Source: Steromphala cineraria (Eukaryota; Mollusca; Gastropoda; Trochida; Trochidae). Taken from it: DNA of 64,000 nt. The notes under the pieces were generated by a model. The model made no database searches. It was given only the letters and a program-made list of their open reading frames with translations, and was not told the origin of the DNA. The position numbers and the translations under genes are program-made. Shown here piece by piece: positions 11,748 to 60,123 of this stretch. Within the stretch, counting starts at the first letter, position 1, and each line of letters starts with the position of its first letter. Location of the stretch: NCBI GenBank assembly GCA_916613615.1, contig OU744720.1, positions 71,688,471 to 71,752,470 on the forward strand, given 5' to 3'.

Positions 11748-14700
11748 GTAGGTGAAAAATACGTTTTTAGCTATTAATGTAACTACTTGTTTTAAAAACT
11801 CGGCATTTTTAGGTGTTCCAATAGGAACGAAATCAAAAGATATGTTCATGTTTTACTCATTGAATACAATTTCTAGATAGGCCTATAACTTTTCAAACGA
11901 ATAGTGACATAATTATTCATTAATTACATTATGCTTCACAGAAATAATCTCGGTACAATATTAGTTAAATATACCCCAAGTTACTTTAAACCTTAATCTC
12001 TGTAAAGATGATTTATCCAATTATTTCGATTTAGAGTATTCTTGCTTTAAATATGAAATGTGCATTTATATGTTTTTCATGTAAAATAGTTTTGACACTA
12101 AGTCATTGGATTATTATAATTGTAAAAGTGCCTAATTAATGCCCCAAAAGTTATAACACGTAGTAGGGATTGATTCTCGCGTATTACCAGGGTAGAATTC
12201 TTGCTAATTGAACAGTTGAATAGTTTTCGAAATTATTTGCAGACATGTCAACAACCAGGGATTTTCTAGTTCTTTCATTTATTCTCTATTTATAAGAATT
12301 TGCACCGGATGTTAAAGACGATCAGTGATTGTTATATTTATTTTTTTATCACACGTGCATTTACAGTGAAACACGTCCTCATCAATTTCGGCATTGCTTA
12401 TTATGTACTACTGATACACTATTTCATTTCTTTCTCCATTTTTAATGTCATTATATAGTTGACATCAATGTTTATCACAAATACAGAATCTTGAAATTCT
12501 CCACCTCGTGAGACACTTCTTTTATTCTATCAAACTCAAACGCCAATAGATAATTCATGTAATCTTCTATCACCATAACTCAACTTTATATATATTTTTT
12601 TTTTTGCGTGCAAATCTCCAATCCTGGAGGAGCTAAAGACACTCACTCACTCACTCACTCACTCACTCACTCCTCGTATTTAAAACAATGTGATTTACAT
12701 TCATAAAAATAATATCTTCTTGTCTAAGTCGAAAAGCTAGTGGCGGTAATATTAGAAAAGCGTGCCAGTTGCAATTTCAAGTTAGTCATTTTTATCTCAT
12801 ATCTGTATTTGTTTTTCCAATAACTTTGTTTCTCGTGACAATTCGCGACATAAGCTTATAAAGCATCTTATTGAATGAAAGACTAAGTTTTCATTTAATC
12901 TTCAATCAGTATTTATTCGGAGTTATTATCATTATATTATTTATACAATGAAAAGCATTATAGATTCAATTTAAGTTTAATTTTAACTGAAATAAACCTA
13001 AATTGTCATAGCCATTAACTATTGTATGATTTTATTTCATTTTGATATTAAAGTATGTTTGCTTGTCACCAATTTATGTTTTCTAAAAATGTACATGTCA
13101 CATCTCCGACCATTTGGTTACCAGAAAGGAAGCCTTGTACTTCACAAAATTAATCTTCAAATTAAAAATCAATCTTCAGAGTATCGCAATTTACTTTTAA
13201 TTATTTTTAGTCTCACCACAATGTATTCGTCCATAATTAAGCAACATTTTAATACTAAATCATAAACTAAGCATTTATTAGAAGCATTCATAATACGGCA
13301 CTATTTCCAAAATAAAAAAGCTTATGTAAAAGGAGCGCATTTCAGAGAAAGCCTTTATCCCTCATCAGATGGTATAATATGAGTGATGGGTAATGGGTAA
13401 TTGGTAATGGGATATGGGTAATGGGTGATCAAGGTATACGCAAAAACTTTGCGTATTTTCACGCTAAAAGGGGTGTACTCTGGACAATCTTTCCACTTCT
13501 ATGAATGCTTTCCAAGGATTTTTAAAGATTTAAATTAAGCTCATGTTAAACACCGAAGACTATGAATTGAATGTTTTGAAATCATTGATAATTAAAGAAG
13601 TCGAATGATTTAGTAATGAATTTCACATTCAGTGTCATCACAACCATTCTGAGCCTTATTTTAGAATCCCAAACGAAACATTTACTTCAAAACACTGATA
13701 AACATTTGGAATAAGCAAAAGTAAGAGGTGCAAGTAGTTTCCAAGAAGTATATTGCTTTCTATATGAATATCAAATCCATATATTTATCACAAAATAACA
13801 ACTTTATTTACCCTTTGATTCAGAATCTTCCCCAAGCAAATGTCTCACTGACTCAGAACTCCACAGCCCTGATACCCTTCACAGAGACCAGTGCTTTCCC
13901 TCACCCCCCAGGGAAGGGGGTCGGGACTACTATGGGTCCCCCACCATTGACGGGAGGGGCTATGGATCCCCCAACGGGGAGGGAGAGGGGTATGTATCTC
14001 CCAGACGGGAAGAACACCTAGAAGAAATGGATGATGTGAGGGGTCTTGATGCCGCCAATTCCGAAAACGAAGACAATGGGTCCAAACCCAGAAAGATCAG
14101 ACGAAGCAGGACAACGTTCACCACCTTTCAGCTGCACCAACTGGAAAGAGCTTTCGAGAAGACCCAGTACCCGGATGTATTTACCCGAGAGGAACTGGCC
14201 ATGAGGCTGGAGCTGAGCGAGGCGAGAGTTCAGGTAAATATATTTACCATTTTTAAGAAGAAAAATCCATTACAAAATATGTTAGAAATAATGTATTTTT
14301 TGTCATTTGTATTTTGTTAAGTGTTCTTAAAACTTATATATTTAATTATTTCTTCTAGAACAATTATTCAACATTTTAAAAACAAATGATCATATCACTG
14401 AACCTTCCCTTAGCTTGAGTGAGGTAGGAATATCAAAATTGATTGAATATTTAATCAGTGAATATTCCCCCTTTCGTGTCTAGTTAAAAGAACGTAGTTC
14501 CTGGATGAACTCCCGATTTCAATTTAAAGTAATTGATTGTTGTTATCAGAAACTTTTGAAAAATCTTTTACATAAGAAATATCTTAATTGTCATTTACCC
14601 ATCAATAAATTAGTATAACTGAAAGATAGTTGAAATATTGAGTAAACAATATTGACAAAATATACGGAATTTTACTGATAGGAGTGTATTAAGGATCGAA

Positions 14701-17700: not shown

Positions 17701-19318
17701 CGCATTAAAGAGAATTCAGAAAAATGTGTTACCATACACAATCCTTTCAAAATATGAAAAAGCTATCGTATTAAGATTTATTTTCTTATGATTTGAAAAA
17801 TACATATGAATAAATCGACATAAAGAGTTATAACATCAAAACTCATTCCAAAAACAACCACAAAGATTTACTAACGTATTTTACGCCTTAATCCCTTAAC
17901 AATATTGAAAGCTAATGGATTTCAAATTATCTTTAAATTACTTCAAATTTCAAAAATAAATCAAAAACGAATAATGAACAACCATGATTCAAATCAGAAG
18001 ATTACCAACCATGAGATAATTCTCCTAACAATTATATCATCAATCCGTATGCGAGAGGGTTAGCATGGCAATTCTAATAAGGTGTCTGTTCGTCAACAAT
18101 AATGAGGGGAAGGCGAGGCAAACTGCCAGTATTGACTCAGCTCAAAGTGGCCTAGGGAAGCGTTTGCCAAGTGATTGGATTTGCTTGGCCACGTAATTGC
18201 TTCTGAAGTGAAGAGCTTGTGTCTTGTTAGTGGAAACAAGATTGATAATGGAACGATCATGCCTCTTTGCTACCGAATGAAGAGCCAGTTAATTTTACAT
18301 TAGATTATTCGATGGGCGAATGACAGTTTAAGTCCTTTAATTAACAATGTTATCTTTTTCTTAAAGTTATTTTTCTTAAAATGCATTGTTGGTTAGTTCT
18401 TAATACCATGCGGCGTAAGGAATGGATTCAATTATGTAATCGTTAATAGTATTTTTATTGATTTCCTGTGAAACAAATCACAACAGGTCTGGCGGTGAAA
18501 GCCCGTGTTCATCCCAGCTGTTCTGTTTTGCTTTCTAGAATTTTAAGTAGTTTAAAGTAATATGTCTCTGTAATCCTTTTCTCCGTAATTTGTTCCCTTT
18601 CTGTGTTAAGGCTGTCTTAAAGAAAATATATGGAATTAATTTTCCAATTTGCATCAATTATTGGATCAGCCGTAGTTACACAGGATCACCAAGAAGGAAT
18701 GAACCATTGGGTGCCATCTTAATCTCTCACTTCCGCCCCTGTCGTAACTAGAATTCCTTCGTCCCCGACTTATCCTCGCTTTATCCTTTACAGGTTTGGT
18801 TTCAAAATCGTCGTGCTAAGTGGAGGAAGCGAGAGAAGGCTTTAGGACGTGAGAGTCCTAACTTCCTGTCCGGAGAACCCTCCCAAGGACTGACCGAGCT
18901 ACCCCCTCTCGGACCACCCCCTATCGCCCTCCAGCCCGGACTTGACCCCTTCTGGTCAGCAAGATTCTCCAACTTGACCGGACTAAGTCCAATGCTGGCT
19001 CTCAACCAGATGGGCGCCATCCCTACTCAGTACTTCCCTAGCAAATCAGTGAACCCCTTTGGAGGATTTCTCTCTAACTATATGGTGGCTGCAGGGGGCA
19101 TACCTGTCCAGAATATGTTCATGGGAACGCAGCTTTCCGCCATGTCTTCTCCCTTAAATCTCGCGCCGTCTCGTGTCTCGCCCGAGAAGGAAAGTTTGGA
19201 CATGCGCAAATCAAGCATCGACTCACTGCGACTAAAAGCAAGAGATCATTCTGTCTCAATCACGGATCAAAGGTCATTTCCGGGTATCCCGCACCACCAA
19301 GAGACGACGTCATCGTGA
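11462..19318 (+). CDS. hbn: homeobrain (paired-class homeobox transcription factor), 3 coding exons
   Basis: Joining 11462-11747, 13824-14233 and 18794-19318 gives a continuous 406-residue protein; donors (AAG|GTAGGT, CAG|GTAAAT), acceptors (TTCAG, TTACAG) and phases (1, then 0) all agree. Visible parts: octapeptide/eh1-like YSIDSILG at residues 70-77, an acidic and Gly/Pro-rich linker, a 60-residue homeodomain at about 187-246 with L16, F20, W48, F49, Q50, N51, and an OAR motif ([13 protein letters not shown]) near 370-388, 20 residues from the stop. The [19 protein letters not shown] segment and the [10 protein letters not shown] start match homeobrain better than Arx/Alx, which carry a YQLEELE-type helix 1 and, in Arx, a longer C-terminus. 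The intron at homeodomain 46/47 is the classical paired-class position. Family role: nuclear regulator of anterior brain development in protostomes and cnidarians, and a member of the HRO cluster. The start is the first Met after an in-frame TAG at 11426; an internal Met at 11610 is a possible alternative. Confidence 0.93.
11748..13823 (+). other. hbn intron 1
   Basis: AT-rich intron of 2,076 bp. It contains an (ACTC)8 tract at 12641-12673 preceded by a T-run, and a short run of near-identical 'atgggtaatgggtaa' units near 13385-13430. No further coding segment is recognised. Confidence 0.85.
12641..12673. repeat. (ACTC)n microsatellite
   Basis: Eight perfect copies of a 4-bp unit in hbn intron 1. 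Confidence 0.95.
13824..14233 (+). CDS. hbn: hbn coding exon 2 (linker and homeodomain residues 1-46)
   Basis: Follows a pyrimidine-containing acceptor ending TTCAG. Its phase-1 frame reads a Ser/Pro/Gly/Glu-rich linker with repeated GYGSP-like pieces, then a basic KPRKIRRSR stretch and homeodomain helices 1-2, ending exactly after ARVQ at CAG|GTAAAT. Confidence 0.92.
15322..16010. repeat. diverged tandem repeat, four units
   Basis: Four imperfect units begin near 15322, 15545, 15700 and 15860. They share the order 'atcaac.tc.t..gaggtatt', 'aagagaaatcctcatt.ccaag', 'tgatgtc...cgcc' and 'aacctgtgcataattaaa'. Spacing is about 150-220 bp and identity is modest, so the array is old. It sits in hbn intron 2. 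Confidence 0.6.
16480..16900. promoter_or_regulatory. candidate regulatory element in hbn intron 2
   Basis: Non-repetitive, higher-complexity sequence in an otherwise AT-rich intron. Two homeodomain-type TAATTA sites lie within 25 bp (near 16503 and 16516), followed by a GC-balanced block without open frames. A role as enhancer is inference; cross-species alignment would decide. Confidence 0.3.
18030..18480. promoter_or_regulatory. candidate regulatory element upstream of hbn exon 3
   Basis: A unique-looking stretch with balanced composition. It contains TGACTCA (AP-1-like, about 18134), a CACGTAATTG element (about 18190) and several TTAATT cores, and has no coding frame or repeat signature. 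Only motif content and composition support it. Confidence 0.28.
18794..19318 (+). CDS. hbn: hbn coding exon 3 (homeodomain helix 3 to OAR)
   Basis: Starts [18 protein letters not shown] right after TTACAG and runs to TGA at 19316-19318. After the homeodomain come a Pro-rich stretch ([14 protein letters not shown]) and an FxxxLxGLSPML segment, then the OAR motif. It is an uninterrupted 174-residue tail. Confidence 0.92.
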   Translation, partial: VWFQNRRAKWRKREKALGRESPNFLSGEPSQGLTELPPLGPPPIALQPGLDPFWSARFSNLTGLSPMLALNQMGAIPTQYFPSKSVNPFGGFLSNYMVAAGGIPVQNMFMGTQLSAMSSPLNLAPSRVSPEKESLDMRKSSIDSLRLKARDHSVSITDQRSFPGIPHHQETTSS

Positions 19319-28821: not shown

Positions 28822-31395
28822 TCAATCCATTCTGAAAAAATTGTTCCAAAAAGTTTGGCTTACCCTACAGTCCCAAAAAAGGTGTTTTATAGTTTCTGGT
28901 TCAGCTTTGCAAAAAGTACATAAGTTGTTGTCAACAATGTGCATCTTAATTAAGAATGTATTAACAGGTAGAATTCTATTGAGCAATCTGAGCTGAAACC
29001 ATCTTAGTTTAGGGTCTGGGGTAGTTTTATGTGCTTTGACAAAAAGGCTTGGCCAGTTTACAGTGATTAAGAGATCTTCTTCCCATTTTTCAATGGCTTT
29101 AAGATTATCCTCGGTTTGAGGTATGACATAATAGTATTTCTTAGAACCTTTTTTGCAAGCAAAGAGATTACTTATAGAAATATTTGTGACATTTTTTGTG
29201 TCCAAGTTAGAATCCTTTTTAATACCAAAATATGTCAGGTATTTATTTACTGATCTTATAATTCCATAAAATTTCAAGAAGTTTATATTAAAATACTTAA
29301 TGCAAAATTGCATTTTATGAAAATAATTTACATAACATATTTAGTTTGCTTAACACTGATGTTAAGCAAACTAAATATGTTATGTAAATTATTTTCATAA
29401 AATGTTTTGTTAAAGAAGGATTTTCTATTTATAGAGATATGTTTATCATACATTAGGGGTTCTCTGAGGAACTCTTCATAGGTTTTTGGTTTTATTTTGC
29501 TACTGTAACTTGAAAAAGCTACAAGACAATCTCTCCAAAAGAAGTTGTGTTGTCTTTTAGCAAGCTTTAGTGGGAATTCACTTCCAAAAGTGAGTATTTC
29601 ATAAGAATCTGGAGTATTTTTTGTCATTAGTTGTTTCCACTTCTTTTCGAAATCAACATTTACCAGCTTCTTTATCCAAATTATTTTCATAGCATCAACA
29701 TATGCAAAAATATCTATCATTCCAAGTCCCCCTTGGAAGATGGGTTTACAGGCAACAATTCTCTTTATTTTATCAGGTTTGTTATCCCATAAAAACTTGA
29801 AGAGGATAGAGTTGATCTTTTTTAGGAATTCATCAGAGGGATTAGGGAGGGTAAGGAGAAGGAAGTTTAGTTTTGAAATGAGCATTGATTTAATTATTGC
29901 AATTTTACCTAAGGGCGTAATAATTCTGTTCATCCATCTCTCAATTATTTGTTCAATTTCATAAATTTTGCTTTCAAAATTAAGCTTTATCATTTTTTTC
30001 ACAGTTAGTAGAAAAAATTATGCCAAGAATTTTGAAAGTTTCAGGGTTCCATTCTAAGTTTAAATCTGGTTTAAATTTAATATAACTGTTCTTTTTGGAG
30101 CCTATCCAGATTACCTGTGATTTATCAAAATTTATTTTTAATCCAGAAATCTTTGCAAAAGTATCAAGAGTGGCTATAGTAGCCTCAAATGATCTCTTAG
30201 AGCCATCCAAAAGGAATTCTATGTCATCCGCATATTGTGCAATTAAATAGTCTATATTGTCAATGGTTAAACCTTTAATATCTTTATTTTTTTTCTCACA
30301 AGAGCTGCAAGAACTTCAGCACATAGAAGAAAAATATAGGGCGATAATGGGTCGCCTTGCCTACAGCCACGACCAACTGGTATCCAAGGGGACATGTTCC
30401 CATTAATTATTAAACTTGACTTTACATCTTTATACAGTATAGAGACCCATTTGGAGATACTTTCACCAAATCCAAAAAATTTGAGGGTTTTGAATATGAA
30501 AGACCAGGAGACAGAGTCAAAAGCTTTTTCAAAATCTACTAAAAGTAGCATACCAGGTATTTGTCTAGATTCTGTGTATAAAAGCAAGTCATAAATCAAG
30601 CGAATATTGTCTCCAAAGTATCTTCCAGACATGAACCCGGTTTGGTCTTCACTAATAATTTGTTTAAACCTATCTGAAATTACAGAAGATAAAAGTTTAT
30701 ATATGGAATTTAAAAGGGTAATAGGGCGCCAATTTTGTATGAATTGTCTAGGTTTATCTTTTTTAGGGATACAAGTGATGATTCCTTGCTTCTGTGTAAT
30801 TGATAGATGGCCAGTCATTTAACTTTTGTGTATTGATCTAAGTATAAAATCTCCAAGATCAAGCCAGAAATTTTTTAAGAATTCATATGAAAATCCATCT
30901 GAACCTGGACTTTTATTGTTCTTAGATCTTTTAAGAGCTGTTAATAGCTCAGCCTTAGTAATAAGTCCTTCAATAAGATCAGATTCAGCTTTTTCAAGTT
31001 TAGGGACATCATATTCTGTGAATAATTCATCAAGGTTAATATCATCAATAAAGTCATCTCTGGAAGCATACAGATTTTGGTAAAAATTGGTTGCTTCATT
31101 TATAATATCCGTAGTATCATTCAATATAGTTCCTTCCTTTGTTTCCAATTCTTTCATGTTTTTGCTGATATAGTTTCTATTTTCAAGGTTACAGAAGTAT
31201 TTGCTTATAGTTTCACCTTCGTCAATCTTGCCTTTGATCTCACTAATATGCCATCTAGTTTATTTTTCCGAATTTGTTGCAATTCATTCCTCTTACTTTC
31301 TAGAACAGAAACACTATCTTCATCATAAATGTTTTCTAAAACTTCAATTTCTGCTGTTAAATCATTCTCTTTTTTTAACCTTTCCTTTTTTTTAA
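28822..31395 (-). pseudogene. LINE ORF2 pseudogene (reverse transcriptase)
   Basis: Reading from 31395 downwards: a helical linker (VLESKRNELQQIRKNKLDG), then EGETISKYFCNLENRNY, SPGSDGFSYEFLKNFW, the RT block with FEKAFDSVSW, GRGCRQGDPLSPYIF and QYADDIEFL, thumb-type sequence, and a C-terminal CTFC...H....C knuckle. Breaks: a frameshift near 31235, an in-frame TAA at 30819-30821, frameshifts in A-runs at 30286-30294 and 29993-29999, and a palindrome-associated stop near 29328. It is inactive as it stands. Confidence 0.9.
29311..29404. repeat. perfect 44-bp inverted repeat, 6-nt loop, inside the LINE
   Basis: Arms 29311-29354 and 29361-29404 are exact reverse complements around the spacer actgat. 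The second arm interrupts LINE ORF2 and introduces its stop codon. Confidence 0.95.
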
Positions 31396-52233: not shown

Positions 52234-52318
52234 ATGTCACAGTTGCCGAGCCAAGTGTCCACGGATGCTGATCCTAGTGAGGAACAAGCTCCTGGGCAGC
52301 TCTTGCAGCAACATCAGG
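52234..52318 (+). CDS. TIR-RHIM gene, first recognised coding exon
   Basis: The exon itself runs from 52194 (after the acceptor TTTATTTCAG) to the donor CAGG|GTGAGG. Coding is taken from the ATG at 52234 (MSQLPSQVST). An out-of-frame ATG at 52208 opens only a four-codon upstream frame. Because an acceptor precedes it, at least one exon lies upstream. Confidence 0.7.
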
Positions 52319-55300
52319 GTGAGGAGTTCATAAATGTCAATTTATGAACAAACGCAATTAGAAGAGTATTGTTAATATTCTATTGGTCTAGTTAGGTCAA
52401 GACGTATGTACATAGAGCAGGATGGAAAGCATTGTTTGGTCTCATATAACTCGACCGGAGTGGGGTATAAGTCAAATATACAAACACTTCCCTTGGTGCA
52501 TCACTCAATACACTCAATCACTCGGCTTCCATACACTATGCCTCGGACCCACGATTCAAACAGGAGGTGTGTATAGCGATGCACCTCTGGAAGTGTGGGT
52601 ATATCTCTCACTTATGTCTTATTGGATTTTCCTCTAATGGGCTTTTCATGTCACAGTTATCACCAAAATGTGAGGTTTGGGCATATTTTGCGCATGTAAG
52701 ATGTGGCGAGGTACTGTTAATTCATACGGAAACCATATATACATGCAATTTAAATATCACTGCAGTACATATTTGCATTTGTAGTCTGATTTATATTCTA
52801 CAATCTATGTATTCTATATTCTCTCAGTTTAAGACATCATGCATCATTCTTTAAAGGGAACAACTTCTCAATACGTAAAAAGTCTATTGACATGCATTAC
52901 CGTACCTTTATATGTAAAAAATTGCTTGAATGTTGACATTTAGTGTAAAGAGAATAAGACGTTGTTATATTAAGAGAAAAGGCGATGTATATTGTGATTT
53001 GAATTTGGGATTTTACAAGTAACTTACAACTAATACATCTAATTTAAGTTGTTTTCTATAACATTAAGACCTAAATGGAAAAATCGACATGCATGAACAT
53101 CCTCAAACTGTGGTTAATGTATGAAAACTGAGTGAAATTTGACACAAAGCGGGGAGCCCGTTTACCTTGTGCAGCGATTTTTAATATGAAAAATTAATCC
53201 TATTGAAATTACAACTATCCCAAAATATTGATATTCCTTCCCGCTACTTGATAAAGTATAATATTTGATAATGAAGATCATTAACTGTATTTTCGCAGCC
53301 GATTATGTGTCCGAATTAGCCTCCATATTGGATTTTTGAGAGAGAAAAGCAGTTGTCACAAAGAGAAAAGGCTGATTACTCACAGAAATGGATGATTGAT
53401 TACCCCGTGTAAACATGTGAGAAAACAGTCCAAGGGAGATAACTCCCTGAAGATGAGATTTGTTGTGTTACATTGTCAGTCATAAGGTATTGGCTTATAA
53501 AAGCTGCAAGTTTTCAATTATGATAACTCTGTTACAAAGACTGAAATGAGGTTTCAGTCACTTCTTCTTTTTGAACACAAAATGTCAGGTCTCTTTGTAA
53601 GAACATCACTTAGTGTGTTGTTGAGTTGCCAAAAGAAACAGTTAACTTACAAAAGATGCACTGTTTTCACCAAGAAGTGACCTGTGTTTTTTTTCTTTTG
53701 TACCTTGAATTTAGAGTTTATTTGTCAATAAAAAGGCCATTGTAAATCAATATGAATACAGAGCATGAGCATAAAGAAGATGCAATGTTCTTCTTCACAT
53801 ATATGTTTTCAGCAACAGTTGATTTTAATCAGACAGGGTTATTGTCATAATCGTGAATGCGATTGTTTTGTTGTAGGGAATGGATCATCAAGGACCCCTA
53901 GACCAACAAGACCGGTTCCCACAGACATAAGTAAGTGACGGCAAAATATTGAATGTGTCTTCAATGCTGCATGCAAGGAGAAAAATATATCTTGTGCATA
54001 TTTCTTTCCTAGTGACCTTCACAAGTAAAGTGTTGTGCAGGTTCCTCAGAATTACAAAATATGTATAAGATCCTCATGCCCTGATCAAGGATATCTTTGT
54101 CATTTTTTTATGAGCCTAGGTTATGTGAAGCATTTAAGAATGATACATTGCATCAGTGTATGAAACAAGCCCCCCTCCAAGCTGTAATCTGGTTGCTTTT
54201 GTCCCGACTGGAAACTTTTTGAATATTATGTTTTAAATCGTAGCCTGTCATTGGCAAGGCAAATTTCGAATCTCTTATGCTGGTTTAAAGCTATAGTGGA
54301 CTTTTTAGAGAGAATACTAAATAAGTAATGAGCTTTTGGAAAATATGAAAACAGGGTTTAGCGATATCTACAATTATAAGGAAGGGGTATTATCTCAGTT
54401 GTAGACCAGTTGTCTAGGTTTTAGATATAGTCTAGTCATACTCTTATCCTCATCAAAATATAACTGAAGGGTTGAAATAAAACAGGTTTATGTTGAGACA
54501 GTACACTTGTACTGGCTGACCATTGCTCGTCATAGTCAATGTTGCATCAGTCCACAACTGTAACTTTGGATCACGTCCAGTGTAATACCACATGACTTTT
54601 GCAAAATTACTTGGTTAGCCTTGGCTTAAGACAGCAAGGCGGGAGCTGTATAGTTTGAACTTCAATGAAGACGCAAAAATCTGAATAATGTTGCAAACAG
54701 CAGAGGAAAGATTCCTGTAAGAGATAAACGATTTGCCTAAGGTGCATTCATAATTGCCTTGAACAATCATATAATTTTACATCGAACATGAAAATTTACA
54801 AATCATACTTTCATGCTGATTACATTCAGGCATATTTCATACATTGATTACATTCATATATTATTACAGGGTCAGTGGACAGTGGCTACTGTGAGACCAG
54901 CACATCCGATCAAGGATCGTTATCCCAAGACGCAGTCCCCTCAAATCCCTCAAGCTTGTCCTCATTGGATCTGAATCCACCTCCATCATCCAGCAGTGTT
55001 GGTCAAGTGAGCTCTGGACCGTCCAGTTCAGGACATCTGGACTCTTCCCAATTTGTCAGCCAGTCTCAGTACGGGTCAAGTCAATTTGGCTCAAGTGTTG
55101 ATACAGTTAGTGATATCCAAGAACATCTGGTTCACAGGATCAATAGAGCTGTTGGAGGAAAGGGCAAGAAGTTTGAGGAGGAAGATGACTCCTCATCAAA
55201 GCCTCTGCTTCCAATAAGCTCCAGTTCAAGCTCCAGTTCTAGTTCTAGTTCCAGTTGTGTCCAAAGCTCGAGCTCAAGCTCCTCCTCAATGCCCTGTGAT

Positions 55301-58300
55301 GATGCTGACTCTGTGACTGATGCTGATATAGATGCCTTGAGGAAGGAAATGCCTTATCAGATGAGGGTTGACTTTCAAGATGCCATGGTTCTGTTTTGTG
55401 ATGAGGATCGGGAAAAAGTGGACTTGTTTATGGAAAATTTTGAAGGAATGAAACTGTTTGACAGAATTTCACCAAAAGTTATGCTTTATGATGATATGGC
55501 TGTTGCCATAGGATCTCAAATTAAAGCTCTAGAATTTGGTATTGATAGATGTACTTATGTGTTTCTATATGTAACCAAACTGTTCTGTGATGATGCATGG
55601 TCAGAATTTTCAAGTGAAACTTGTTTGATGGAAGCAATTCATAATCCATCCAAGAAGTGGTGTGTTGTGCCTGTGTTCACTGAACCAAAACGAAATGCTA
55701 GTTTTAGAGTGCCTCCATCCCTCAATTCTTTGAAGGGAATCCAGTACTGGACAAATGATAAATTTTTCAAGGACTCTGTGAAAAAGCTTTTGCAGGAGAA
55801 GTTATTCATACGGAGAAAAAATGAAAAAGAGCTCACCAGAAAGAGGAAGGAATGGGTAGTGTCTCATCGAGTTGAGAAGATGAAAGAGGAGGTTCAGGAC
55901 AAAGAAGAGATGGTGGCTCGACAGAGGAGAGAGCAAATAGCACGAGAAGAAGCGATGGCTCAGCGATGTGAGTTGGAGAGAAAGCAGATTGAGCAGGAGA
56001 TTCGCCACCAGATGGAGTTGCAGAAGATTAAGGAGGAACAGGAACAGAGTCAGGGGATGAAGATGATGATGAAGCAGTTCGCTCAGAGGTTCAATGTACC
56101 GTCATCCTCATCCAAAACAGCTGTTTCTTTTCCTGGACTTAGTTCATCTAAATCTGATGAAGAACTTGTACATCATTTGAGGCGGATGTTTGGACAGCAG
56201 AACAACCCTCAGAGTGGGTTCCCTTCAGGTAATCAAACCCCCAGTAATGTTCATCAGGTGAGTTTAGGTCAAGGAGGCAGCCTGGCTTCTGGAAGAAGTT
56301 TCCAAGAAACTGCTGGTTCCCAAGCAAGTGATGAGGGCAGTACTGGTTTCACTCCTGGGAACATTGGGACAGCAGCTGAAGCATATTCTCAAAATACTCA
56401 GTACTTTAGTCTGCCTTCTCAACCACCTCAAGGTATTTCTCCTGCTTTTCAAAGTCTGCCATCTAACTTACAAACTGCATCTCAACTTGGTAGTGACAGT
56501 TTTTCCAGAGGCGATCTCGAAGAGGATCAACCGCCTTCACTTTATCAACATTCAAGCTCCAGCACTGGCTTGATCTCTGCTAGCCAAGAGGCTTCTATAC
56601 AAAAAGCTCAGGATCACATGAGACATACTAAAGGACATCCATCTGTGCCAGATGCAAGGACATTCAGTGGGGCACAGTCTCAGTCTACAGTTGGGCCTCA
56701 GTCTGTAGTAGGGCCTCAGAATGTTTGTGGACCTCAGTCTACAGGTGAAGCTCAGTCTATAGGTGGGCATCAGTCTATAGCTGGGCCTCAGGGTGTAGTT
56801 GGTCCTCAGTCGGTTGGAGGATCTCAGTCTATAGCAGGTGCAGGAGTTCGGACAGGGCATGTTCCTGATCCTCCTGCAAATGCTAAAGAAATTCACTACC
56901 ATTATCATTATTATGACAAGAACCCTGAACAGTCTCAAACAAAAGGTGCTCCTGAAAAACCTCCAATAAACATTGTTGGTGCTAAGATAGTGCAAATTGG
57001 TGATGGAAACCTGGTGCAAGTTGATGATGAGTTTATGAAGGGTGGAGCAGAGACACAAGTACGTGCAGGAGATGCTGACAGCAGTGATGAGGAGGTACAG
57101 CAACACAAGACTAGTCAACCTGGGTGAGTGCTACAGTCTTTACTTATTTACTGTGTAGTTTTCTGCTGTTATACTTCAATCGCTGATTGCTTCTCCTGGT
57201 ATGCTTCCTTTAAATAGAAAGATTGTGTTTGACTCTCAACTTTCAAGATTTAAATGTGAAATTTTGATGTCATTCTATAAATGCTTTTAGACCTATGCCT
57301 CAATTAAAAAATAATGAAGAGTTTTATTGGCAAATCCAGGAATTTTGAATAGGGGGATTTTTTAAATTAACTTAGAACCCTTTCCCCCTACCCCCCTGGA
57401 TCCGCTGAAGATATTCGACATAATTCTAATCAAATATGTTATTGAGCATGATAATTATGTGAAAATTAAACTTAATAATGCATAGTTAGGCTTATTGTCT
57501 GTCTTATTTTCATTGCAGAACTGCCTCAAAGCCAGTAGTATCCATCCCCAGCCAGCCCCCCTCAACTATCTACCAGGACAACCACCCATCAGTTCCCTAC
57601 AGGGGCTCCTCCCCTAGACCAGTGCAGCTGCCCACCAGAGACAAGGACCAGGGTCTGCCTCTTCATCCCTCCAGACCTTCAGCTCATCCTGCAACTTTTG
57701 CTGGAAATCCTGCAGCGGCCTCCTCTCCTGCTGTTGCTTCAGCAATGCCTCATGGATCTCACATTCTGCCTCAAGGAACAGTTCCAAAAGGCCCTGCTTC
57801 TGCAACAACTGTCCCAAAGGTTGCAGCCTCCTTGACAACAGTACAGACTCCTCTAGAAGGTTCTGTTGGTCCACGAACATCAGCACAAGGTTCCTTTGTA
57901 TCAGAAGGGCAAACATCGATTGTTGGTCCAATTTCTTCTGGACCAATGGCAGGCCTGGCAAATGATCCATCAAGCGCAAGTCATCCTGGTGGGCCCCAGA
58001 TAGCCCTAGTTAAGCCTATGGGAACTCAAGGACTTTTAGAAAGGGGACGTGAGGAAACAGCAGTGAAAGGTGTGGCTGCACAAAGCAGTTCCTCCCTTCC
58101 TCCACAAACTGAGTATGATTCCATAGCCTCACAGACTGCTGCCAAGGGTCTAGAAGAGGGGGATCCCTGTGAGGAACAAACACTGGCTAAGATGCGGGCT
58201 CTTGAGAGTGTAAGTACAATGACCTCTTTCTTTTGCTAAATGTTGTTTGGGAAATTGGCCTTTAAAGAGGTACTGTGTGATGATTTTGATGGATAGTTTG

Positions 58301-60123
58301 AATTCGATAATTCTAGAATGCTTTAAAACAGCTCAAGAAGCGATTGACTGGACAAAAATGAACAAAATATACTACAAAGGGTTGCAGAAACATACCCCTT
58401 TGTCTCCTAATTAATCACCTATGAAAAGGATGCACAAAATTGTCCTTTGAAGCAAAAATCCTTCAAATGAAAGATATGGCCAAGATATATTCCAAGATCA
58501 AATCCACGTACATGTACATTTCACAGTCTGTCAGACAGCCATAGAGGCAGGTTGAACTGGACTGACTGCCTGAAGTAGTTATTATATAATATGTATAGAT
58601 TTCTTTCACTGCTGGCATCTGCAGACAATGTACATAATTTGGCTGTGAATATTTAGCATATTTACCTTCTTTTCTAAAAAAAGAAAATGCTTTGCCCGTT
58701 TATCCATATATGTGATATTGATAAATAAATGTGAAAATATTCTTTTCAAAATCATATATCACATTTATTGCAAAATGCTTAATCACATATATTGTAGTCT
58801 CTATTGTTAGCAAATTCATAGCAGGCTACGTTTGAATTGAATCAAAAATTTCTCTCAATAAGAATTTTTGTGTTTGTCCTAAATATACATTGTTCAAATA
58901 GGGTTTCCATGTGGCAAAAAGTTTTGAGTCTGACCCCAGTCCTCTAAATTGTTATGTGTTGTCAATAGATCATGTAATAGTTTTCAGCGTAGATATTATA
59001 CACATTTGTGCTGACTTAAATATGGTTTTATTAAGTAAATTTTGACACAAACGTCTTGATCTTAATTATAATCAAACTTCATATCACAGTAGGGCTGCAA
59101 CGATTCACTACGATGCATCGAAAATCGATTCAGATTTATAATATCGAAAATCGATTCATGATTCAAAATTTCGATTCGATTCACTTTTAATTTTTCTTGC
59201 TAAAAATAATCAAAATTTTGCCTAAATTAGATCTTGATATATTGCATTCGCGAGTGTTAACAAGTCACGTAAAGTTTTTAAACCGGAAACCAAGTCTACA
59301 ATATGTCAATATGTCTACAATATGTAACGTAATCAGTGATTGGTTAATATCCTCATCCTCGAGGCTCTCGGCCAATCAGCGTGGTTTATACATTTGCCTT
59401 AGCAGCGCTGCATGGCAACAGTCGAGCAATATGGCCGAATCGAATCGAAATAAATCGAATCGAGCTGTAAAAAATAAAAAATCGAATCGAAGTTGTCTAG
59501 GTGAATCGTTGCAGCCCTAATATCACAGGTAAATGCCAGTCTGATTAAAATCGACCGTACTCCGAGGAATAAAATATCAAAAATATTGTCTCTATCAGGG
59601 CTCGAACCAGCCAGAACATCCTCTCCGTCTCGGTCTGAATGCACCCACCTCTGTCGCATGTTCCTATGACCAGTTTAGCGCAGACAAACCCAGTCATAAG
59701 CTATCCAATCACATCCTCGTTTTTAAATAGCGTTTAGCGGTGATTATGTATAACGAATGGTACACTAGAGTTACCTGCCCCTGCATGATATCGAAGCTTT
59801 TACTGCGCCCCTTGCGATTGGCTAGATGAGCTTGCAACACAACATGCTGGTAATAGGGGTGCCTTCAGACTGTGAATGAGATTAAAGCCGGGCTGGTTGA
59901 AGTTCAAACCCCATTAGAGACAATATTTTTACACTTTTTTCCTCGAATCACAGTCGATTTTAATCAGACTGAGGTAAATGCCTAAAAAAAACAGTGAGGT
60001 CCCCTTTTAGAATCCTCCAAAAATATGGATGTGAGTCTAGCTGGTGCGGACTCATCCTCGGGCACCTGAACACAGCGAGTTCGCCTGATTATTTGTTTTT
60101 TTTGCTTTCAGGAGATCGACTGA
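52234..60123 (+). CDS. TIR-coiled coil-RHIM adaptor (TRIF/TICAM1-like), 5 coding exons
   Basis: Exons 52234-52318, 53877-53930, 54870-57123, 57519-58209 and 60112-60123 join in consistent phase (1, 1, 2, 0) to give 1031 residues. Order: Ser/Gln-rich N-terminus with poly-Ser runs (about 161-189); TIR domain (about 207-355: DAMVLFCDEDREK, then VFLYVTKLF, then CDDAWSEFSSETCLM, then CVVPVF); charged coiled coil (about 358-445); Ser/Gln/Gly-rich region; hexapeptide repeats (about 649-708); IHYHYHYY; RHIM core VQIGDGNLVQV (754-764); Pro/Ser/Ala-rich tail. The TIR resembles TICAM adaptors around the AWxxFxxxTxLM stretch. The position of the SARM1-type catalytic Glu is Ser, so NADase activity is unlikely. 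Known family role: TIR adaptors relay receptor signals, and RHIMs recruit RIPK-type partners through amyloid assembly. The start is the first in-frame ATG in its exon, but the frame is open to the upstream acceptor, so extra N-terminal residues are possible. Orthology to TRIF versus convergence is unresolved. Confidence 0.88.
52319..54869 (+). other. TIR-RHIM gene introns 1 and 2
   Basis: The 1,558-bp and 939-bp introns flank the 54-nt exon. No repeat family or coding segment is recognised. The sequence agcgatatctacaa at about 54362 matches the repeated unit of the 46.5 kb inverted-repeat element. Confidence 0.75.
53877..53930 (+). CDS. TIR-RHIM gene, coding exon 2 (54 nt)
   Basis: A short exon between TTGTTGTAG and the strong donor GTAAGTGA. 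It reads NGSSRTPRPTRPVPTDI in the frame joining exons 1 and 3. It is basic and Pro-rich, with no domain. Confidence 0.75.
   Translation, partial: GMDHQGPLDQQDRFPQT
54870..57123 (+). CDS. TIR-RHIM gene, main exon (TIR, coiled coil, repeats, RHIM)
   Basis: A single 2,254-bp exon after TTATTACAG, ending at CCTGG|GTGAGT. It carries all recognisable domains: TIR in 55,350-55,800, Lys/Glu/Arg coiled coil in 55,800-56,060, hexapeptide repeat in 56,677-56,853 and RHIM in 56,970-57,030. Its open frame of more than 750 codons is by far the longest in the window. Confidence 0.92.
57519..58209 (+). CDS. TIR-RHIM gene, coding exon 4 (Pro/Ser/Ala-rich tail)
   Basis: Begins after TCATTGCAG, completes the split Gly codon, and reads 230 further residues of low-complexity Pro/Ser/Ala/Gly/Thr sequence ending LAKMRALES at the donor GTAAGT. 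No domain is recognised. Confidence 0.82.
59090..59520. mobile_element. hAT-like non-autonomous element in TIR-RHIM gene intron 4
   Basis: Termini TAGGGCTGCAACGATTCAC / GTGAATCGTTGCAGCCCTAA and a perfect 8-bp duplication tatcacag (59082-59089, 59521-59528), the hAT signature. The interior is rich in repeated 'aatcgattc' and 'cgaatcgaa' blocks. No transposase frame. Confidence 0.92.
59537..59971. mobile_element. CAGTCTG-type MITE in TIR-RHIM gene intron 4
   Basis: Inverted termini CAGTCTGATTAAAATCGAC with a perfect 10-bp duplication aggtaaatgc at 59527-59536 and 59972-59981. Same subterminal text (ccgaggaataaaatatcaaa, attgtctcta) as the other copies. A 9-10 bp duplication suggests a MULE- or Merlin-like mobiliser. 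Confidence 0.9.
60112..60123 (+). CDS. TIR-RHIM gene, terminal coding exon (Glu-Ile-Asp-stop)
   Basis: After a strong pyrimidine tract and TTTCAG, the phase-0 frame reads GAG ATC GAC TGA. Only three residues come from this exon; the rest is 3' UTR. Read-through of the exon 4 donor would instead add VSTMTSFFC and stop at 58237-58239. Splice consensus and phase favour the short exon. Confidence 0.6.
   Translation, partial: EID

Follow-up and report, generated by a model that had tools for sequence, protein, structure and literature searches.

We analyzed a 64,000-nt window of the Steromphala cineraria genome (the whole stretch of DNA considered here) and focused on one gene on its plus strand, located at 52234..60123, whose predicted protein combines a TIR domain with a RHIM. 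The gene consists of five joined exons that give 1,031 codons and a stop, and every border reads as a GT donor or an AG acceptor (Table 1). The predicted protein shares the start MSxLPSxV with the Haliotis models P0001 and P0002 and the end TLAKxRALESE[IV]D with the Haliotis models, whose C-terminus reads ESEVD, and it is this agreement of the C-termini that supports the last exon of only 12 bases. With the five GT-AG exons closing the frame and both ends agreeing with Haliotis, the spliced 1031-residue frame proposed by the initial annotation was retained. The same annotation had placed the RHIM at the C-terminus, which needs correction, as ~270 residues come after the motif. It had also considered that the TIR and the RHIM might be spliced into different proteins; as a single exon encodes both, the two are inseparable by splicing, barring an undetected intron inside that exon. 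The structure model shows a helix over residues 358-384, at the start of the charged stretch, and a VGPQS-type repeat lies ahead of the RHIM; it is shorter than the repeat of the mollusc relative P0004, a long array of an ~11-residue unit, VGGHQNMPTTV, between TIR and RHIM.

Table 1. Exons and protein features of the TIR-RHIM gene, in window coordinates
Feature	Position	Strand	Residues	Observation
Exon 1	52234..52318	+		Starts at ATG; N-terminus agrees with Haliotis models
Exon 2	53877..53930	+		AG acceptor, GTAAGT donor, frame kept
Exon 3	54870..57123	+		Contains Ser-rich N-terminal region, TIR, charged stretch, His-tract and RHIM
Exon 4	57519..58209	+		Disordered-looking tail
Exon 5	60112..60123	+		Final 3 codons and stop; 12 bases
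TIR domain	55370..55819	+	~214-363	Profile searches and modelled TIR fold; range from VIA alignments
Charged Glu/Lys/Arg/Gln-rich stretch	55811..56080	+	~361-450	From sequence; read as a coiled coil in the initial annotation, coiled-coil pairing putative
His/Tyr tract HYHYHYY	56894..56914	+	722-728	His-rich tract before RHIM in 14 of 16 module-bearing relatives
RHIM	56960..57010	+	744-760	Core VQIG at 56990; Pfam PF12721; RIPK3 RHIM is the top PDB match of RHIM profiles

Much of the evidence for the two domains comes from relatives of the protein in other molluscs. We collected 25 of these in three rounds of searching. The second and third rounds scored only the ~8,000 candidates with the most shared words, so the list is a sample; the organisms named in it are three Haliotis, Littorina, Pomacea, Mytilus, Ruditapes, Mercenaria and four scallops. 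No Pfam TIR model was reported for the window protein itself at E ≤ 10, and TIR_2 was reported in 9 of the 18 relatives scanned, one of them, Ruditapes P0019, exceeding the curated cut-off (31.3 bits versus 28). We identify the domain from the relatives, the profile search and the structure model together. When compared with the PDB, a profile of eight mollusc TIRs matched TICAM2 (TRAM) at E 6.5e-11, TICAM1 (TRIF) at 0.025 and MyD88 at 0.27, and a profile of six gastropod TIRs matched TICAM2 at 2.9e-7, the following families having E values of 0.006 and 0.038. The structure model of the domain has a TIR fold (predicted local distance difference test score, pLDDT, 90.7; predicted template modelling score, pTM, 0.86), and TRAM, TRAM and TRIF ranked as the first three in the structure comparison, tied with MyD88. 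The TRAM match and the model confirm the TIR domain that had been claimed from the letters alone. Over the TIR, identity to Haliotis P0001-P0003 is 71% in the relative search and 74% in the region comparison. In the opposite direction, the TICAM2 piece searched against 34 TIR rows gave its best three scores to TICAM-like rows of the bivalve group (34.5 to 33.2 bits) and the fourth to a Toll TIR (32.9 bits); the TICAM1 piece scored best against a C32 paralogue (17.4 bits), and the MyD88 and SIGIRR pieces preferred Toll-type rows.

The TIR appears to be of a docking rather than an enzymatic kind. We take Toll-type and SARM1 TIRs to carry a Glu four residues after the conserved Trp, the position of the NADase catalytic Glu. 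The TIR of the window protein has a Ser there and lacks this SARM1-type feature, as do its relatives (20 Ser, 4 Ala and 1 Gln among the 25). Clustered TIRs can be NADases, and a protein with a TIR fold might accordingly be a SARM1-like NAD-cleaving enzyme in which the RHIM serves as a clustering device. The residues at the catalytic position make this very improbable, and SARM1 is absent from the PDB sequence matches of the TIR searches at E ≤ 10. SARM1 does occur low in the structure-comparison lists, absences from which we gave no weight.

At E ≤ 10, Pfam found a single family in the window protein, PF12721. It scored 14.6 bits when the entire protein was searched, 18.5 bits for a 99-residue piece and 20.0 bits in the genome scan, against a cut-off of 20. 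In that six-frame scan of the 1.27-Gb genome, this RHIM was the third of ten PF12721 matches at E ≤ 10; the 14 control genomes gave one match, below the cut-off, and so provide no calibration. The initial annotation had let its claim depend on a RHIM profile match above background, and on this the outcome is divided: the whole protein falls short (14.6 versus 20 bits), and the third best score genome-wide and the recurrence of the module in relatives speak for the motif. The core VQIGDGN at residue 754 agrees with the tetrad consensus (V/I)Q(V/I/L/C)G with a following N (PMC9182532). The final motif position is given as M, L or I in PMC9440496 and is V in the window RHIM. Across all six frames of the window, the pattern [IV]Q[IVL]GxxN is present at this site and nowhere else. 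When the protein was shuffled 20,000 times at constant composition, 57 shuffles contained the seven-residue core and 14 the nine-residue form in which V may stand last. Searched against the PDB, the single RHIM sequence had no match, and a profile of seven TIR-RHIM motifs found the RIPK3 RHIM first at E 0.019, followed by an unrelated protein at 0.042. Another profile, which took in two further RHIM genes from this genome, found RIPK3 at 7.1e-5, RIPK1 at 0.007 and an unrelated protein at 0.099.

Haliotis P0001-P0003 hold the TIR and the RHIM within one protein, and a RHIM-like module is present in 16 of the 25 relatives. The tetrad is canonical in six of these (P0001-P0004, P0019 and P0020) and altered in ten: VMIG in P0005, P0023 and P0024, LMMG in P0006, VMVG in P0009, VIIG in P0011, SQIG in P0012 (by eye), VVVG in P0022 and VVIG in P0025 and P0026. 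A His-rich tract lies ahead of the module in all but two, P0019 and P0020. Nine relatives (P0008, P0010, P0013-P0018 and P0021) lack the module. At E ≤ 1, Pfam reported RHIM in two of the 18 relatives scanned, both below the cut-off, and in none of P0003, P0004, P0019 and P0020. As VQIG also occurs at unrelated sites in P0004 and P0012, the tetrad by itself is not diagnostic. Together with the sub-threshold score of the window protein, these altered, missing and stray tetrads could mean that VQIG arose by chance or has decayed, that it plays no part in amyloid formation and that the protein is simply a TIR scaffold. We consider this improbable: identity to Haliotis is 48-52% over residues 716-765, which hold the His-tract and the RHIM, but 24-25% over residues 451-715 and 30-35% over residues 766-1031; the core is rare among shuffled proteins, canonical in Ruditapes P0019 and P0020 and present in a second gene of the genome; and the nine relatives without the module are all shorter models (342-746 residues). 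The most conserved 20-residue windows past residue 450 in the comparison with Haliotis lie outside the RHIM, at ~803-824 in exon 4. Judged from the sequences, the RHIM is convincing through its position and recurrence, not through its score by itself.

The second gene (gene 2) spans C32:24049930-24054997 on the minus strand, with a TIR paralogue at C32:24054176-24054673 upstream of the RHIM match at 24049930 (19.5 bits in the genome scan, 19.3 in the Pfam read). It has the order TIR, His-tract and RHIM of the window gene, and its exons join in frame by eye, from the TIR to an exon with HHYHH, to the RHIM exon (INIVNCNNVQIGSGEINI) and to a further exon, with splice phases 1, 1 and 2. An hhalign comparison of its TIR with the TIR profile of the window gene gave 96.4% and E 1e-9. 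Read from their sequences, gene 2 and the window gene are diverged paralogues and hence not independent gains, and since both keep the same domain order, a chance pairing of TIR and RHIM is unlikely. The central claim of the initial annotation, TIR and RHIM in one mollusc protein in the order of TRIF, is thus supported by the relatives and by this paralogue of the window gene.

Five of the genome's ten RHIM matches sit in apparent exons of different genes. The top match (23.5 bits) belongs to gene A at C39:45928149-45928193 on the minus strand, an exon ending in a RHIM and then a stop. Gene B, at C39:47.68-47.69 Mb (47.688 Mb), also on the minus strand, has a RHIM exon (INIINSQNVQIGHHNQM), which is followed on that strand, at a distance of ~7 kb, by an exon with a Death-domain match (E 1.5e-10); the two may belong to one gene, possibly an Imd-like or RIPK1-like adaptor. 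At C32:21905345 on the plus strand, a RHIM exon is followed after ~1 kb by long frames that match SLFN_AlbA_2 and STAND NTPase below the cut-off, and the locus possibly encodes a RHIM-bearing SAMD9-like protein. We scanned the 100-kb stretch upstream from each of genes A and B, in minus-strand frames of at least 20 residues, with kinase motif patterns including the RIPK1 form: none of the frames fitted the pattern of the catalytic loop, and what matched the other patterns was scattered and unconvincing, a scan of this kind being able to miss a RIPK-like kinase that lies farther off or is split inside a motif. Pfam searches of the nearest 10 kb of both genes and, for gene A, of the following 10 kb in two of the three frames gave only RHIM and sub-cut-off matches.

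For the TIR tree, we used 38 rows, including 18 of the 25 relatives, gene 2 and 14 TIRs of the same genome; SARM1, MAL and amphioxus had no rows and the root is not proven. Human TICAM1 and TICAM2 and 24 mollusc rows split from the 12 other rows with support 100/99, and when L037, SIGIRR, L042, L043, L048 and P0012 were left out, the remaining eight other rows still stood apart at 100/99. Five of the 14 own-genome rows (L036-L040) were picked from matches to this TIR; L040 was placed with the Toll rows. Approximately unbiased (AU) tests, whose groups were defined only after inspection of the tree, rejected two groupings of TICAM, one with the Toll, SIGIRR and MyD88 rows (p 0.006) and one with MyD88 plus L047 (p 0.003). 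In this small, long-branched tree, the window TIR thus belongs to the TICAM group, away from MyD88, TLR and SIGIRR, and together with the profile search the tree makes it most likely that the domain is shared with chordate TICAM by common descent. How human TICAM branches relative to the gene-2 group and the main mollusc group has little support: the fork joining the two mollusc groups received 76/7 and 66/0.

The likeness to TRIF lies in the order of TIR and RHIM, in the grouping of the TIRs by both profile and tree and in the residues ahead of the motif, PLIIHHAQM preceding the VQLG of TRIF, with His there too (PMC9182532). The window protein differs in its long charged stretch between TIR and RHIM, in the ~270 residues past the RHIM and in its weak direct match to TICAM1 (E 0.025), and a Pfam search of it at E ≤ 10 did not find the TRIF N-terminal domain. 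In motif-pattern searches, pLxIS was found in none of the 12 proteins scanned (the window protein and 11 relatives), and the TRAF6-binding pattern was absent from the window protein and present in 8 of the 11 relatives, Haliotis included. A TRIF-type interferon arm is therefore unlikely for these proteins, which may still bind TRAF. TRAM is the nearest TIR of known structure by sequence (6.5e-11) and the first, though tied, by structure, but it is described as a TIR-only protein (PMC9440496). The amphioxus bbtTICAM, which we can liken to the window protein through its published description, is a chordate protein reported to activate NF-kB through RHIM binding to RIP, with no type I interferon (PMC6043800).

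These differences leave room for convergence, in which a mollusc-specific TIR adaptor would have gained its RHIM independently of TRIF, perhaps shuffled from another RHIM gene. The genome is rich in RHIMs that could have served as a source, the window protein shows neither the N-terminal domain of TRIF nor the TRAF6 or pLxIS patterns, and the link to TICAM1 is far weaker than that to TICAM2, whose product is the TIR-only TRAM. On the other hand, two mollusc TIR groups share with TRIF the order of TIR then RHIM, and a RHIM-dependent action is reported for amphioxus TICAM (PMC6043800), although PMC9440496 has no RHIM domain in Leptocardii. We regard convergence as unlikely, if far from negligible. 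The initial annotation had left open common descent or convergence; the profile search and the tree favor descent of the TIR, and the fusion with the RHIM is likely as old as that shared ancestry, its age not being proven.

On balance, we give a probability of roughly 0.7 to the window gene encoding a mollusc TICAM-class (TRIF/TRAM) TIR adaptor that is non-enzymatic and couples TIR receptors to RHIM proteins. Three points temper it: the TIR of gene 2 has no Pfam TIR match and no PDB match better than E 1.7; the reduced tree carries a warning, as its long branches meet at MyD88 and at the TICAM pair; and PMC9440496 describes Leptocardii as having no RHIM domain.

Acting as such an adaptor, the protein would dock with its TIR onto the TIR domains of Toll-type receptors and polymerize there without cleaving NAD, and the charged stretch may aid the oligomerization. 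Clustering would raise the local concentration of the RHIM and could seed, together with RHIM-bearing partners, an assembly of the cross-beta (amyloid) type. The TRIF RHIM is described as an amyloid that co-assembles with RIPK1 and RIPK3 in a tetrad-dependent manner (PMC9182532), and in one study RHIM mutation left the NF-kB activation by TRIF unaltered (PMC12119088). Candidate partners are gene B, with its RHIM and Death-domain exons, and the other RHIM genes of the genome. Gene B resembles the arthropod Death-domain adaptor Imd in this pairing, but it is a possible partner, distinct from the window gene, and Imd is reported as not found in molluscs or brachiopods (PMC9835746). A RIPK1-like RHIM kinase is also reported in another mollusc: RIPK1 homologues with a RHIM, lophotrochozoan RHIM proteins like ours but kinases, are described in the zebra mussel and Lingula, and the C-terminus of the zebra mussel protein was put through an NF-kB assay (PMC12119088). 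PMC9573974 conflicts with this in restricting the RHIM to vertebrate RIP kinases, and PMC9835746 has no RHIM in two nemerteans. The output would probably be NF-kB and/or caspase signaling, as for amphioxus TICAM (NF-kB), and not interferon.

Published surveys place the pairing of TIR and RHIM, and with it the origin of TICAM, in chordates, in the basal ones according to PMC9440496 and PMC6043800. In molluscs, TRIF and TRAM were reported as not found in Aplysia (PMC9334734) and the Sydney rock oyster (PMC4892480); a survey of Mytilus edulis, which also cites TRIF and TRAM of cnidarians, mentions 'one weak hit for TRAM' (PMC3308963), and a review figure legend lists TICAM2 for a scallop (PMC12521104). 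Our own literature search, which mostly reached non-subscription papers and these in part, found no report of a mollusc TIR-RHIM protein. The snail gene and its abalone, clam and scallop relatives suggest that the route may be much older than the surveys place it. In the broadest form of this idea, to which we give an even chance, the TICAM-class TIR-RHIM adaptor would be a bilaterian invention, duplicated in molluscs and central to a RHIM amyloid network with the RHIM-Death adaptor, the RHIM-bearing SAMD9-like NTPase and other RHIM genes, and necrosome-like signaling from receptor to RHIM would predate vertebrates and interferon. If the RHIM assembles, the protostome-deuterostome ancestor would already have had RHIM-driven signaling from TIR receptors, and this signaling would be separable from interferon. 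The gene is a concrete candidate with which such a hypothesis could be approached in abalone, scallop or clam cells.

The genome holds at least 150 TIR_2 matches, all above the cut-off (150 of 325 candidates scored), many of them in frames of 700-900 residues, which points to a large TIR expansion; the window gene is not among the 150 listed. A 1,574-residue frame at C32:4401617-4407273 on the plus strand has six matches to the window TIR, with one more in a neighboring 251-residue frame. Among the relatives, the scallop proteins P0023-P0025 show a weak C-terminal UBA match (best 15.7 bits versus a cut-off of 22.4) and Mytilus P0011 has a UBA-similar stretch by eye; no UBA was reported in the window protein.

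Elsewhere in the window, intron 4 of the gene contains at 59090-59530 a repetitive TCGAATCGA-like sequence, by eye perhaps the end of a mobile element, and frames on the minus strand at 28822-31259 resemble a broken non-LTR retrotransposon (reverse-transcriptase-like by eye). On the plus strand, 13799-14320 and 18752-19318 are two exons of a paired-type homeobox gene with Homeodomain and OAR matches above the cut-off, which we take to be Arx/Alx-like.

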